Shown here piece by piece: positions 2,777-53,861 of a stretch of 64,000 nucleotides of DNA. The translations under genes were made by a program, and so were the position numbers. The notes beneath the pieces were generated by a model. The model had not been told where the DNA came from. It searched no databases and saw only the letters and a program-made list of their open reading frames with translations. Position 1 is the first letter of the stretch. Every line of letters starts with the position of its first letter. Origin of the DNA: Synechococcus sp. PCC 7502 (GTDB taxonomy: Bacteria; Cyanobacteriota; Cyanobacteriia; Pseudanabaenales; Pseudanabaenaceae); the NCBI RefSeq assembly GCF_000317085.1, contig NC_019702.1:1084394-1148393 (forward strand), in the 5' to 3' direction.

Positions 2777-5700
2777 TTAGTTTAAGGACTGAGTCTGAGA
2801 TTTGAGTGCCGCCAATTCTGCTCTAAAACCTTCTTTGACTTGCTCATACTCATGGTCAAGCTCAGCAATTAAATTTCCTAATTGACGGGTATTCGCCAGC
2901 TTTGCCTGTTTTTCAATAGTTCTTGCTAATTCAGCCATACTGACAGCGCCTAAACTACCACTAGTAGATTTTAAGTTATGGGCGGAAAAATACAGTTTAT
3001 CGAAATCCTGCTGTTGTAATTGGCTTTCTAATGTTTGAATTAGTTCGGGGGTGGTGGTTATATATTCATCAATAATTTTAGCCAGACTTTCAACGGATAA
3101 ATATTCTAAAAGTGACTTGATGACATTAGGATTAATCACCCGTTTGGAGTTCACCCCAGTGGTTGATGGCTGGCAACGTTCAATTACTTTAGCTAGTTCT
3201 TCTGTTAATACGGGCTTACTGATGTAGTCATCCATTCCTGCTTCAAAGCATTCAGCGATCGCCTCTTGGAAAACATTAGCAGTCATGGCAACAATCCGAG
3301 GGCGATTTCCTCTGCCATTTTTTATATTTTGTAAATCCTGACTACGAATAATGCGGGTGGCTGTTAATCCGTCCATTTCGGGCATGTGAATATCCATAAA
3401 AATCAGATCAAATCTCTGCTGCTCGGTCATGACTATAGCTTCTTTGCCATTGCCAGCGATCGCAGGGTTATAACCAAATCTTTCTAGCATTGCCACAGCT
3501 ACTTTTTGATTAATGGCATTATCTTCTACCAAGAGAATTTGCAGAGGTTTAGTCAATCCAGAAACCTGTGGGTGAGATATTTCGGTCACCTCAGAACCAT
3601 GCAGGGAAAAAATCCGCAGTAGAGTTTTGAGCAGTTGGGAACTCTTAACCGGTTTGCTGAGAGTAGCGGCAGCAGCTTCAATTTTACGATGGTAATCCAA
3701 GGAAGTTAGAAGGATAATCGGAAATGTATGCCCCTTTTCCTGAAGAGCGATTGCCAATTCTGCTCCATTGATTTCAGGCATTTTTAAGTCAAGGATCGCC
3801 AAATCAAAATTAGGATCAATTTCTAAAATATCCAGTGCCTCTCTCCCTAAGCCAGCACTTTGGACAAGCATCCCCCAACCCTGTAGCTGAATGGTCAGGA
3901 TATGGCGATTGGTGGCATTATCATCAACTATTAATATGCGTTTGCCCTTGAGGTCATCTTCAAGTATAGTTTCTGGGAGATCATGACCGCAGGCAACTGG
4001 AATCGTAAAGCTAAAAGTAGAACCAACGCCAATTTGCGAATTAACTGTCAAGGTACCACCCATCATTTCACACAGTCGCTTACTGATGACTAAGCCTAAA
4101 CCCGTGCCGCCGTATCGTCTGGTAATAGAGCTATCTGCTTGGGCAAAGGGCTGAAATAGTCTTCCTATCTGCTCATCCTTAATGCCAATGCCTGTATCTT
4201 TAATTTTAAATTGGACTAAACAGTCTACGGCGGAATTTTCGATATAAGTAACAACAATTGTGACTTCACCTTTTTCCGTGAATTTAATGCCATTACTGAC
4301 TAGGTTAATTAAAATTTGGCGCAGTCGCCCTGCATCTCCATTAATAACCGATGGGAGTTTGGGATCAATTAAAGCTGCTAGTTCAATCTTTTTCTCGGTG
4401 ATTTTAGGAGCAAATAGGTCTAGGATTTCTTCAACACATGCCTGGATCGAAAACGGCTCAATCTCCAATTCCATGCGATTTGCTTCAATTTTAGAGAAAT
4501 CTAAAATATCATTGATCACGTTAAGTAAGGCATCTCCGCCCATACGGATAGTTTCTACGAAGTTTCTTTGTTCATTATTTAACTGAGTATCTAAAAGTAA
4601 TCCAGTCATACCGATCACCGCATTCATAGGGGTACGAATTTCGTGACTCATCATTGCTAAAAATTCGCTCTTTGCTTGGTTTGCTGCCTCTGCCGCTTCC
4701 TTGGCGACTTTTAGTTCCAATGCTTGTTTTTGCACTTGGCTAAATAACTCGGCATTTTTAACGGAAATTCCCAACTGACTCCCAATTTGAATGGCGATCG
4801 CTACTTCATTCTCCTTCCATGTCCTAGGTGCAGAATTTTGATAGGCAGCCAACAGTCCCCAGAGTTGTTGTCCTTGAAAAATTGGTACGATTAGGTATGC
4901 CCTTGCTTGGATAGTTTCTAAAAGCTCCACATAGCAGGTAGAAAATCCCGCTTTATAAATATCATTAATGCAAAGATGGGTACCAGAACGATAGCCACCA
5001 CCTTGGGTATTTTGGAGATAGGTATCAACCACATCACTGCTCATTTGATCCAACTCTTCCATTTGTTTGACAATGCAGCGATCACTATCTACAGCACTAT
5101 TTTCGATCACAATGCCGTTACTTTGTCCTTCAATTAGGGAAATCCAACCCGATCCCACCGACTCAGCAACCAATAATCCACTCCAATCGGGATTAAACCG
5201 ATAGATAATTACCCGATCGCAGCTTAACACCTCACGCAATTCCACAACGGTGGTACTGAATATATCTTCTAGGTTCAGGGTACGCCGAATCCGATTACTA
5301 ATCTGAAATATTAATTGTTCTTGGCGTAGCTTCTCTTGCAATATTGCCTCCGTAGTTTTGCGATCGCTAATGTCAAAGGCGATGGTACCAACAGCATAGG
5401 GTAAATTATGGGAGTCTATAAGTGGAAATCGGGTAGTAATGTAGGTATGGGAGCCATCAAATAAATCAATTACTTCTTCGTCCGAGATCACGACTGCTTC
5501 CTTTAAAATCTTCTGATCCTTATCAGTAATGTGTTCAGCCTGTTCTAAGCCAAAAAAATTGTATGCGGTTCTGCCAATCACTTCAGTTTCAGCCAGTTGT
5601 AAAGCCGATTGAAATTCTAGGTTCGCAAAGAGATATTTGCCCTCACGATCCTTAATATGAATCATGGCAGGAGCATAACTAGTAAAGGATTTTAGTCTTT

Positions 5701-50633: not shown

Positions 50634-50700
50634 CAATTTTGTCAATCAAGCTAATCAATCTTCTGAATTTTGGTGAATATAAACTTATAAATAATTTATT

Positions 50701-50826
50701 TAGGACTTATGCAAATACAAACCAAAACCTTGATATTAAGTGGGGTGTGGGGCTGCGCCTCACTTGAGGGCAAAGCTCTCAAACTCCCTTCTCGCAATAC
50801 TTTTAAATTAAACTGCGTAAGTCCTA
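50701..50826. mobile_element. MITE-like element with terminal inverted repeats
   Basis: A 126-bp element without a gene. The left end TAGGACTTATGCA (50701-50713) and the right end TGCGTAAGTCCTA (50814-50826) are 13-bp inverted repeats with one mismatch. TTATT flanks both sides (50696-50700, 50827-50831) and could be a target duplication. The core (50742-50798) carries two hairpins shared with the copy at 47890-47945. It lies between the SH3 and txlA genes and may affect their ends or promoters. Confidence 0.75.
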
Positions 50827-50895
50827 TTATTAAATAACTTATAAATACAGATAGAACTGATATTACTCCAATAACTAGATCAAGTAGAATGTGAT

Positions 50896-51521: not shown

Positions 51522-51725
51522 CTAAACCTTATATGTAGCTCCACGCTCTTTCATTCTCTGCTCAGGCTTAATGGAAGCATTTTTAGAAACCTGTTCCCAG
51601 TTCGTATCTTCTAAAATGGCATCAAGTACATCTGACAGGTTGCATCTTTGCTCAAAAGCCACCTTTCTCAAAATTTCGTGATGTTCGGGCTTAATATAAA
51701 CAGGCTTTCTTTGAGTTTGTGCCAT
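51522..51725 (-). CDS. Ribbon-helix-helix DNA-binding protein (possible regulator of the R-M system)
   Basis: The 67-residue basic protein has a short beta strand (RKPVYIKP) followed by two helices (EHHEILRKVAFEQ and NLSDVLDAILED), the ribbon-helix-helix pattern of CopG/MetJ-type repressors and many antitoxins. No toxin lies beside it. It diverges from the methyltransferase gene, and the 115 bases between hold three TAGCTA palindromes, two of them in tandem. Its role as local repressor of itself and of the methyltransferase is inferred from this layout. The region has no HIP1 site, suggesting transfer. Confidence 0.7.
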   Translation of the reverse strand: MAQTQRKPVYIKPEHHEILRKVAFEQRCNLSDVLDAILEDTNWEQVSKNASIKPEQRMKERGATYKV

Positions 51726-51760
51726 ATTTTTAAGGTATCAGCAAATCTAAATATACATTA

Positions 51761-51801
51761 AATAGCTATTTATTTATATTGACATTTAGCTAATTAGCTA
51801 A
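51761..51801. promoter_or_regulatory. Candidate operator: tandem TTAGCTAA palindromes
   Basis: TTAGCTAA occurs twice in tandem at 51786-51793 and 51794-51801 (8-base period), with a related palindrome AATAGCTATT at 51761-51770. All three share the TAGCTA core. An 8-base tandem palindrome is the arrangement that MetJ-type ribbon-helix-helix dimers occupy side by side. Confidence 0.6.
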
Positions 51802-51808
51802 TTAAAAT
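51779..51808 (+). promoter_or_regulatory. Candidate sigma-70-type promoter of the methyltransferase gene
   Basis: TTGACA (51779-51784), an 18-base spacer and TAAAAT (51803-51808), with the ATG at 51841. The tandem palindromes fill most of the spacer, so a protein bound there would block RNA polymerase. Confidence 0.6.
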
Positions 51809-51840
51809 GAGAAAAGTTAATCCTCTAAACATTTAAGACT

Positions 51841-53160
51841 ATGTCAAAAAAACTACTATCCCTATTTTCAGGTTGTGGAGGCATGGACTTGGGGTTTGAT
51901 GGTGGATTTAAGGTACACAAAGATTTAGTAAATTCCTTGATTAATCCTAATTGGATTTTAGAAACACATAATAATCAAGTATTACTATCTAAAAATAATT
52001 TTGACTTGGTGTTTGCCAATGACATTGTTAAAGCTGCCAAAAATGCTTGGGTTTCTTACTTCGGACAAAGAGGCATAAGTCCATCTGTTTTTCACCTTGA
52101 TAGTATTGTAAATTTGGTCAAAGACTCCGAACTTGGAAAATTCTCCTTCCCATCTAATATTGATATTGTGACTGGAGGGTTTCCATGTCAGGATTTTAGC
52201 GTCGCAGGGAAAAGGAAAGGATTTAATTCTCATAAAAGTCATAGTGGAGATTTACTGGATAAAAGTGAAATATCGGAAAATCGAGGTCAGTTATATCAAT
52301 GGATGAAAAAAGTCATTGAAATTACTGCTCCAAAGGTATTTATTGCCGAGAATGTTAAAGGACTTATCTCCCTTGCTAATGCTAAATCAATTATTGAGTC
52401 GGATTTTAAATCTATTGGTGAGTATGGTTATATAGTCTTTGCCAAAGTTTTATTTGCTCCCGATTATGGTATCCCCCAACGGCGTGAACGAATTTTTTTT
52501 ATAGGACTTAACAAACAATATTTACGCCCTGAAGCAGTGATCGCTTTACAGCAAGAATTAATCCCTGCAAGGCTTGATCCATTTCCTCCTAAGACTCATA
52601 CGGCAACTGCCACTCAAGGCTCATTATTTAGCTCTTTGCTTCCCTTAAAACCATATACTACAGTCCGATCAGTATTAGAATCTTTAAATGAACCTGAACA
52701 AGAGAAGCAAGACTTAGCGCAGATGAAATACTCAAAGGCTAAACATTGCGGAAACCATCAAGGACAAATCGAAGTAAATTTAGATGGACTATCTCCGACA
52801 ATTCGGTCTGAACATCATGGTAATATTGAATATCGAAGACTATCTTTAGAGCATGGTGGACGATATATTGATGAATTAAACAAAGGGCTATCAGAAAGAA
52901 GGCTAACTGTCAGGGAATGTGCTAGGATTCAAACTTTTCCTGATGACTATGAATTTGTTCGAGAATCTAAAGATGAATTACAACTAGGGGCAAGTAGTAG
53001 CTATAAATTAATTGGTAATGCCGTTCCTCCATTTCTAGCCTATCACTTTGCTAAAAGGCTTGAACTAATATGGGATAAGCTATTTATAACTGATAATCTG
53101 ATAGTAAATCAACGAAAAGATTTGGTCTTACCTAAGATTTGTCTAACATCAGTAAGTTAG
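51841..53160 (+). CDS. DNA cytosine-5 methyltransferase
   Basis: The 439-residue enzyme has the C5-methyltransferase motifs in order: I LSLFSGCGGMDLGF (about 6-19), IV GGFPCQDFSVAGKRKGF with the catalytic Cys near 116, VI ENVKGL near 178, VIII QRRERIFFIG near 217, and IX/X RLTVRECARIQTFPDDYEF (read as RECARIQTFP) and KLIGNAVPPFLA. The target-recognition region lies between VIII and IX (about 225-335). The recognition site is not known. It ends convergently with the nuclease gene (stops overlap by 4 bases), so it is the protecting half of a type II R-M system. Confidence 0.95.
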   Translation: MSKKLLSLFSGCGGMDLGFDGGFKVHKDLVNSLINPNWILETHNNQVLLSKNNFDLVFANDIVKAAKNAWVSYFGQRGISPSVFHLDSIVNLVKDSELGKFSFPSNIDIVTGGFPCQDFSVAGKRKGFNSHKSHSGDLLDKSEISENRGQLYQWMKKVIEITAPKVFIAENVKGLISLANAKSIIESDFKSIGEYGYIVFAKVLFAPDYGIPQRRERIFFIGLNKQYLRPEAVIALQQELIPARLDPFPPKTHTATATQGSLFSSLLPLKPYTTVRSVLESLNEPEQEKQDLAQMKYSKAKHCGNHQGQIEVNLDGLSPTIRSEHHGNIEYRRLSLEHGGRYIDELNKGLSERRLTVRECARIQTFPDDYEFVRESKDELQLGASSSYKLIGNAVPPFLAYHFAKRLELIWDKLFITDNLIVNQRKDLVLPKICLTSVS

Positions 53161-53861
53161 AAATTTTGATCATCATCGTCTGATACTTCAGTATTCAAAT
53201 CCTCAATGGTAATATTCTCTTGCAGTGCTATTTTGATGATCTCTCGGACTAAATCATCTTGCCAAGAATACTTGATATTATTCTGGTAAATTCGGTTAAT
53301 AGCTGCTCTAGCGTATTTTTTGATCCAATCTTTATCATTAATCATTAGTTCAAGTTTAGGGCTTTCACTTCCAGATTGAAATTTTCCCCAACTTAATCTA
53401 GGGCGTGGGGTTCTATCTTGAAATAAATCAGTCTCTCCTGTTGTGATCCCTAAATAGTAACGACCATACCTAAATTCAAATTTTGAATTATTTGATGATC
53501 GGCAACAAAATATGACCCAGATATTAAAGTCAAGTTTGCTAATAGTGGAACCAGGAATAATGCTTGAGTCTTTACAACTTTTAAGTTCAACCTTTCGCTT
53601 AAATTGATGATTGCCGTCACTAAAGGTTATTTGAATGTCAGGAGATTTAATTTCTACAATTTCAATATTCTTATGATTGGATAATCTGAATGCCTCTTCA
53701 AACTTTTGACAAGCTAATCTCGAATAGTCAGAATCAGTATTTGCTTCGCTATCTGTCCATCTTATCCGTAGAAGTTCATCAATAGCAGATTCTAGTATCT
53801 GAGTAGTTTTCTGTACTAATTGCGGAAGTAGCACGAAATCAAGAAAGCTTTGACTATCCAT
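53157..53861 (-). CDS. Probable type II restriction endonuclease, PD-(D/E)XK type
   Basis: The 234-residue protein is not of a family I recognise. It has a PD-(D/E)XK core: PD at 74-75, a beta hairpin, then VELKS with E92 and K94. The helix before (SRLACQKFEEAFR) and the strand after (LDFNIWVIFCCRS) fit the nuclease fold. It lies tail-to-tail with the C5-methyltransferase, overlapping its stop by 4 bases. This is a common type II R-M arrangement and supports a restriction role. The specificity is unknown; the C-terminus is acidic (SDDDDQNF). Confidence 0.72.
   Translation of the reverse strand: MDSQSFLDFVLLPQLVQKTTQILESAIDELLRIRWTDSEANTDSDYSRLACQKFEEAFRLSNHKNIEIVEIKSPDIQITFSDGNHQFKRKVELKSCKDSSIIPGSTISKLDFNIWVIFCCRSSNNSKFEFRYGRYYLGITTGETDLFQDRTPRPRLSWGKFQSGSESPKLELMINDKDWIKKYARAAINRIYQNNIKYSWQDDLVREIIKIALQENITIEDLNTEVSDDDDQNF

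Follow-up and report, generated by a model that had tools for sequence, protein, structure and literature searches.

A putative ribbon-helix-helix repressor gene with a tandem TAGCTA operator beside Type II restriction-modification systems of cyanobacteria

Introduction

A 67-residue ribbon-helix-helix (RHH) protein encoded next to a Type II restriction-modification (R-M) system of Synechococcus sp. PCC 7502 is, on sequence and comparative grounds, probably an autoregulated repressor of the adjoining methyltransferase gene and a dedicated controller, portable among Type II R-M systems and built on the RHH fold; we put the probability of this reading at about 0.8. Comparison across genomes lifts what had been a guess from a single locus to a family, for which DNA binding, repression and enzyme activity are predicted.

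R-M systems need the protective enzyme to be made before the cutting one. Control by an RHH protein would add another protein fold to the solutions of this timing problem, and one that is reused across unrelated systems. An uncharacterized small gene would gain a testable role, and the RHH gene together with its operator offers a simple search for more systems of this kind.

Gene organization of the locus

The window, that is, the whole stretch of 64,000 nucleotides that was analyzed, contains the RHH gene at 51522..51725 on the minus strand (67 aa), a C5-cytosine DNA methyltransferase (MTase) gene at 51841..53160 on the plus strand (439 aa), and a gene for a putative PD-(D/E)XK restriction endonuclease at 53157..53861 on the minus strand (234 aa). 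The RHH and MTase genes diverge from a gap of 115 bp, and the MTase and nuclease genes lie tail-to-tail with ends overlapping by 4 bp, a layout that the first-pass annotation of this DNA had read correctly, coordinates included. The MTase matches Pfam DNA_methylase (E=7.4e-54) and TIGR00675 (dcm; E=3e-47), with M.HaeIII and M.HhaI as its relatives in the PDB. For the nuclease, no model matched in Pfam, NCBIfam or PADLOC, and its AlphaFold model (mean pLDDT 71) gave no significant structural match in the PDB, SfiI and DpnI being among the weak ones. Its putative label is based on P74-D75...E92-x-K94, residues P74, D75, E92 and K94 of which are invariant in four relatives. In the cyanobacterial relatives L018-L021 the nuclease adjoins the same MTase family, so that the MTase/nuclease pair is kept together as in a Type II R-M system.

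This type of R-M system also occurs outside cyanobacteria. On the Psychrobacter plasmid pP60P2 (L101, 2818-5173), an MTase 54% identical to that of the window lies tail-to-tail with a gene for a hypothetical protein that is 33% identical to the core of the window's nuclease, and the operator described below is absent.

Class of the small protein

Assignment of the small protein to the RHH class is weakly but consistently supported by each of several tests of sequence and modeled structure. All 26 of the 26 aligned members matched NCBIfam ORF56 (CopG-type RHH) at scores below the curated cut-off, with E=0.00025 for the best member and E=0.0015 for the window's protein, and Pfam RHH_4 gave a weak match for 2 members. 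The AlphaFold monomer, of low confidence (mean pLDDT 68), consists of a coil at residues 1-12 and helices at 13-26, 30-40 and 43-64; helices 13-26 and 30-40 are as expected, and residues 1-12, the expected N-terminal strand, form an extended coil in this monomer model. The best Foldseek matches in the PDB were mostly RHH proteins (Arc, ORF56, MatP, CopG, NikA and AmrZ), all with E>0.5. No match was obtained to HTH families, the fold of C proteins, in Pfam or NCBIfam.

The comparison with MetJ-type proteins holds in part. It agrees with the DNA, in which 8-bp palindromes are repeated in tandem and in register, but not with the protein, which on weak but consistent evidence is nearest to ORF56, CopG and Arc and has no match to the MetJ family in Pfam or NCBIfam.

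Promoter and operator in the intergenic gap

The gap contains a near-consensus promoter for the MTase gene, with a -35 element TTGACA at 51779..51784 and a -10 element TAAAAT at 51803..51808, both on the plus strand; TTGACA-N18-TAAAAT has 11/12 consensus matches, and its -35 element is conserved in most relatives. The -35/-10 spacer is filled by a proximal operator at 51786..51801, two abutting 8-bp palindromes TTAGCTAA TTAGCTAA. A distal operator, identified by sequence and register, is the 14-bp palindrome TAAATAGCTATTTA at 51759..51772, whose TAGCTA core (51763-51768) is set off from the first proximal site by exactly 24 bp. Because 24 bp is 3 x 8, the distal site is in the same 8-bp register, and the gap thus contains three TAGCTA at spacings of 8 and 24 bp. 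The promoter, the tandem palindromes in its spacer and the third TAGCTA had all been pointed out by the first-pass annotation and are present; the 24-bp register is newly noted. The RHH protein would be expected to bind within 51755-51805, through TTAGCTAATTAGCTAA.

On the side of the RHH gene, a TATATT at 51750..51755 on the minus strand, just beyond the distal operator, is a candidate -10 hexamer read from the sequence, and a TATA(C/T)T-like hexamer occurs at or near this position in many, not all, relatives. A clear -35 element for the RHH gene was not found in the gap, and the gene's own promoter is poorly defined. No TAGCTA precedes the nuclease gene.

The arrangement is rare by chance. 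When the 115-bp gap was shuffled 20,000 times by dinucleotides, 13 shuffles gave identical 8-bp palindromes abutting each other, 42 gave an abutting pair with a third site in register, and none gave the exact pair of the window (0/20,000). The abutting TTAGCTAA pair is the sole perfect copy in the window, and a perfect TAGCTAATTAGCTA occurs once in the 3.58-Mb genome. There was no evidence of a wider regulon of the operator in its own genome, since sites with up to 2 mismatches were no commoner than those of a reversed control (26 vs 29).

Distribution and neighbors of the RHH gene

Six other RHH homologs were found in 386 cyanobacterial genomes, each directly adjoining a C5-MTase, and a scan of one genome per species, covering 84,980 species of bacteria and archaea, gave 27 RHH loci, all cyanobacterial. 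Plasmid, phage and viral collections contained no RHH relatives. In a profile search for distant relatives, seven genomes scored E<1e-35 and the next best 0.026; this sharp drop indicates a tight family, set apart from all others, within cyanobacteria. Removal of duplicates left 32 distinct loci, the window included, many of them from closely related Pseudanabaena, so counts over these loci are not counts of independent cases.

A C5-MTase gene adjoins the RHH gene in 27/32 of these loci. The MTase beside it is cut by a contig end in L039 and is a remnant in L029, and tblastn found none in L032, L042 and L044, two of which lie within 450 bp of a contig end. The RHH-linked MTases fall into four families with mutual identity of 26-33%, and the nucleases into five types, one of them Eco47II-like, with no detectable mutual similarity. 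Two MTases stand behind one intact RHH gene in four islands (L027, L033, L040 and L043); an operator precedes the second MTase in L033 and is absent there in L040 and L043, while in L027 the second MTase follows directly after the first. In L041 (3021-4721), a GmrSD-type nuclease, a type that is normally modification-dependent, takes the place of the nuclease that is cognate to the MTase in its relatives.

Conservation and register of the operator

All the RHH gaps examined contain a recognizable tandem operator pair. The consensus of 27 non-redundant gaps is TTGACAAtTnGCTAATTAGCTnnTTtaat, and the pair therefore normally fills the -35/-10 spacer; the exception is L047 (the same locus as L017), in which it lies upstream of TTGACA. 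Further sites scoring at least 6/8 number 40, of which 30 are offset by multiples of 8 bp and 21 lie at -24, an offset found in 21/33 gaps scored. L040, which carries an extra 8-bp block, has its further site at -32, L037 has one at -16, and no distal site is present in L015 or L016. The evidence for an 8-bp register is strong, yet these are not 40 independent events, as many of the loci are related. In L016, moreover, the RHH and MTase genes are co-directional, and the operator is still at the promoter, before both genes.

The operator accompanies the RHH gene and not the MTase, because MTases that lack an RHH neighbor lack it as well. A control set comprised the 23 MTases of one family in the 386 genomes. 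The two with an RHH gene gave operator scores of 16/16 and 13/16, while none of the other 21 exceeded 12/16 in the 350 bp upstream, not even one (G054) with 85% identity at the protein level. Two orthologs of the window's system (L019 and L020) have neither the RHH gene nor the operator, and the mismatch-free pattern of -35 element plus operator was found in 2/386 genomes, in both cases in the RHH/MTase gap. The first-pass annotation had proposed looking for the gene order and palindromes in other genomes, and had taken a small gene always beside an unrelated neighbor as evidence against its own reading. The opposite is seen, with a C5-MTase of one of four families beside the RHH gene in most loci.

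Separately, an MTase without a nearby RHH gene (L055) has the operator-like sequence TTGACAATTAGCGTGATAGCTAGTTTACTAA (12/16) upstream of 1501, perhaps a decayed operator.

Exchange of R-M systems and of the regulator

The RHH gene with its two-way promoter looks like a portable unit that serves unrelated MTase/nuclease pairs. Between Pseudanabaena loci with different R-M types, the RHH protein keeps 86-100% amino acid identity and the gap, as far as the -10 element, is 71-90% alike, while the MTase starts agree at only 38-42% (ungapped). In L033, the second MTase, of a different family and with its own operator, stands beside a frameshifted RHH remnant. The regulator can also be exchanged: in L020, an orthologous R-M system, a 66-aa HTH_3 gene (3576-3776; E=6.5e-10) sits where the RHH gene would be, in the same orientation. 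The idea of an RHH protein standing in for a C protein is thereby borne out as an exchange between two genomes, in which RHH and HTH genes alternate in one orthologous system. The gap of the HTH_3 gene contains an inverted repeat, TTTGCTAA...TTAGCAAA.

A more far-reaching reading, which we hold only tentatively and at slightly less than even odds, is that the RHH gene, its two-way promoter and its 8-bp-grid operator form a mobile or exchangeable cassette that attaches to unrelated Type II systems, with cross-regulation among them and convergence with the repressor RptR (see below). With a common operator in all these systems, a single repressor could cross-regulate several of them in a cell. 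Such cross-regulation, if true, could affect which R-M systems establish themselves or coexist, as C-protein incompatibility does.

Proposed mechanism and alternatives

In the proposed mechanism, RHH dimers would bind the 8-bp TTAGCTAA palindromes next to one another, in steps of 8 bp. Of the three sites, two would fill the -35/-10 spacer of the MTase promoter and the third, three repeats off, would lie by the RHH promoter. The array would extend to the start of the RHH gene and, once filled, would shut off the MTase and RHH genes together. Repression of the MTase, not activation, is expected because the operator sits between -35 and -10, and its position before both co-directional genes in L016 fits repression of both. 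In a newly entered cell, where no repressor is present, a burst of MTase would protect the chromosome; the repressor would then build up and hold the MTase at a maintenance level. Incoming DNA would thus be cut before it is methylated, as excess MTase would protect foreign DNA. Early burst followed by restraint is the timing expected by analogy with MTase-repressing C proteins (PMC12707154). The nuclease gene is probably not a direct target, and because no TAGCTA precedes it, its control would be indirect.

The distal site, at a fixed register in most loci, would also allow the RHH protein to be a dual activator-repressor, activating from that site alone and repressing at high level, much as C proteins switch with occupancy (PMC12707154). 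This is unlikely, as the two best-matching sites lie over the core promoter of the MTase gene, no operator precedes the nuclease, which is the gene that C proteins activate, and the distal site is missing in L015 and L016; an activator is, moreover, unnecessary because the MTase promoter is near-consensus (11/12). Alternatively, the operators might be read by the MTase itself, as happens with SsoII-, Ecl18kI- and EcoRII-type MTases, whose fused domain represses the MTase gene (PMC12707154), or by a host regulator, which would leave the RHH protein as a passenger or nuclease accessory. That the operator is unchanged across MTase families, is absent where the same MTase family occurs without RHH, and persists beside RHH genes whose MTase is reduced to a remnant or was not found (L029, L032 and L042) makes such a reader decidedly improbable.

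The repressor of the MTase gene proposed here is nearest in its working to RptR, encoded in a defense island of EPEC, a small dimeric autoregulating repressor beside R-M genes, whose tandem TAGCTA palindromes overlap the core promoter, whose neighboring sites are occupied cooperatively, and whose protein and site are conserved together (PMC12255303, NAR 2025). The shared TAGCTA palindromes in the target promoter (three in the window's gap), placed as direct repeats over it, might suggest that the small protein belongs with RptR and not in the RHH class, but the chance of this seems very slight. RptR is all-helical (four helices, PDB 9R2Z), has 79 aa with its DNA-binding residues in the last helix, and recognizes 9-bp repeats, whereas the RHH system has an RHH-like protein and 8-bp repeats (8 and 24 bp spacing). 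Likewise, RptR controls Type I R-M plus DarTG2 in a same-strand operon of Gammaproteobacteria, whereas the RHH system is Type II C5, divergent and cyanobacterial. The RHH profile has no sequence match to 9R2Z at E<=10, nor is 9R2Z among the fold matches listed for the low-confidence model, most of which are RHH proteins. On present evidence the two are probably not of the same family, and the same TAGCTA core with different folds suggests convergence. If this is true, unrelated folds would have converged on TAGCTA for the control of R-M genes, a remarkable instance in which two folds, to all appearance unrelated, use one DNA core for the same task.

Relation to other known regulators

Repression of their own or neighboring promoters is usual for proteins of the RHH class. 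MetJ and Omega dimers bind tandem short repeats side by side, namely 8-bp met boxes and 7-bp repeats for Omega; however, their site sequences are different and they are not known as R-M controllers. Omega controls a toxin-antitoxin system (PMC3874152). CopG, ORF56 and Arc are the closest relatives of the RHH protein in sequence and fold, at a similarity below curated cut-offs, but they control plasmid copy number or phage genes. TrcR is likewise a cyanobacterial autoregulating RHH repressor whose site overlaps its -10 element, but its motif is ATACTACACTTGTATTAC, it controls tRNA and translation genes, and no R-M role is described for it (PMC10272220).

C proteins such as those of PvuII, BamHI, Esp1396I and Kpn2I are also small dedicated autogenous controllers, some of which repress the MTase gene (PMC12707154). 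They have an HTH fold, however, and their genes usually lie ahead of the nuclease gene that they activate and are transcribed together with it; the RHH gene, in contrast, diverges from the MTase gene, with the nuclease at the far end.

A review of R-M regulation from 2013 brings up RHH regulators in connection with toxin-antitoxin systems alone (PMC3874152), and one from 2025 gives promoter methylation, MTase-fused repressors, antisense RNA and HTH C proteins as R-M controls (PMC12707154). Searches of the open-licence literature turned up no RHH or CopG controller for R-M genes. The claim that no such control of an R-M system had been described thus stands for RHH proteins, but has to be qualified for the operator, since the non-RHH protein RptR controls Type I systems through the same TAGCTA palindrome (PMC12255303).

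Additional features of the loci

Two RHH loci (L024, 3784-5886; L030, 3789-5906) encode an Eco47II-type MTase of about 700 aa, and the L030 enzyme contains, according to Pfam, an intein carrying a LAGLIDADG domain; such an insertion in an R-M methyltransferase deserves attention in its own right. In the window, a MITE-like element with inverted ends AGGACTTATGCA...TGCGTAAGTCCT lies at 50700-50835, upstream of a thioredoxin-like gene, and has 16 matches in the genome, 5 of them close to full length.
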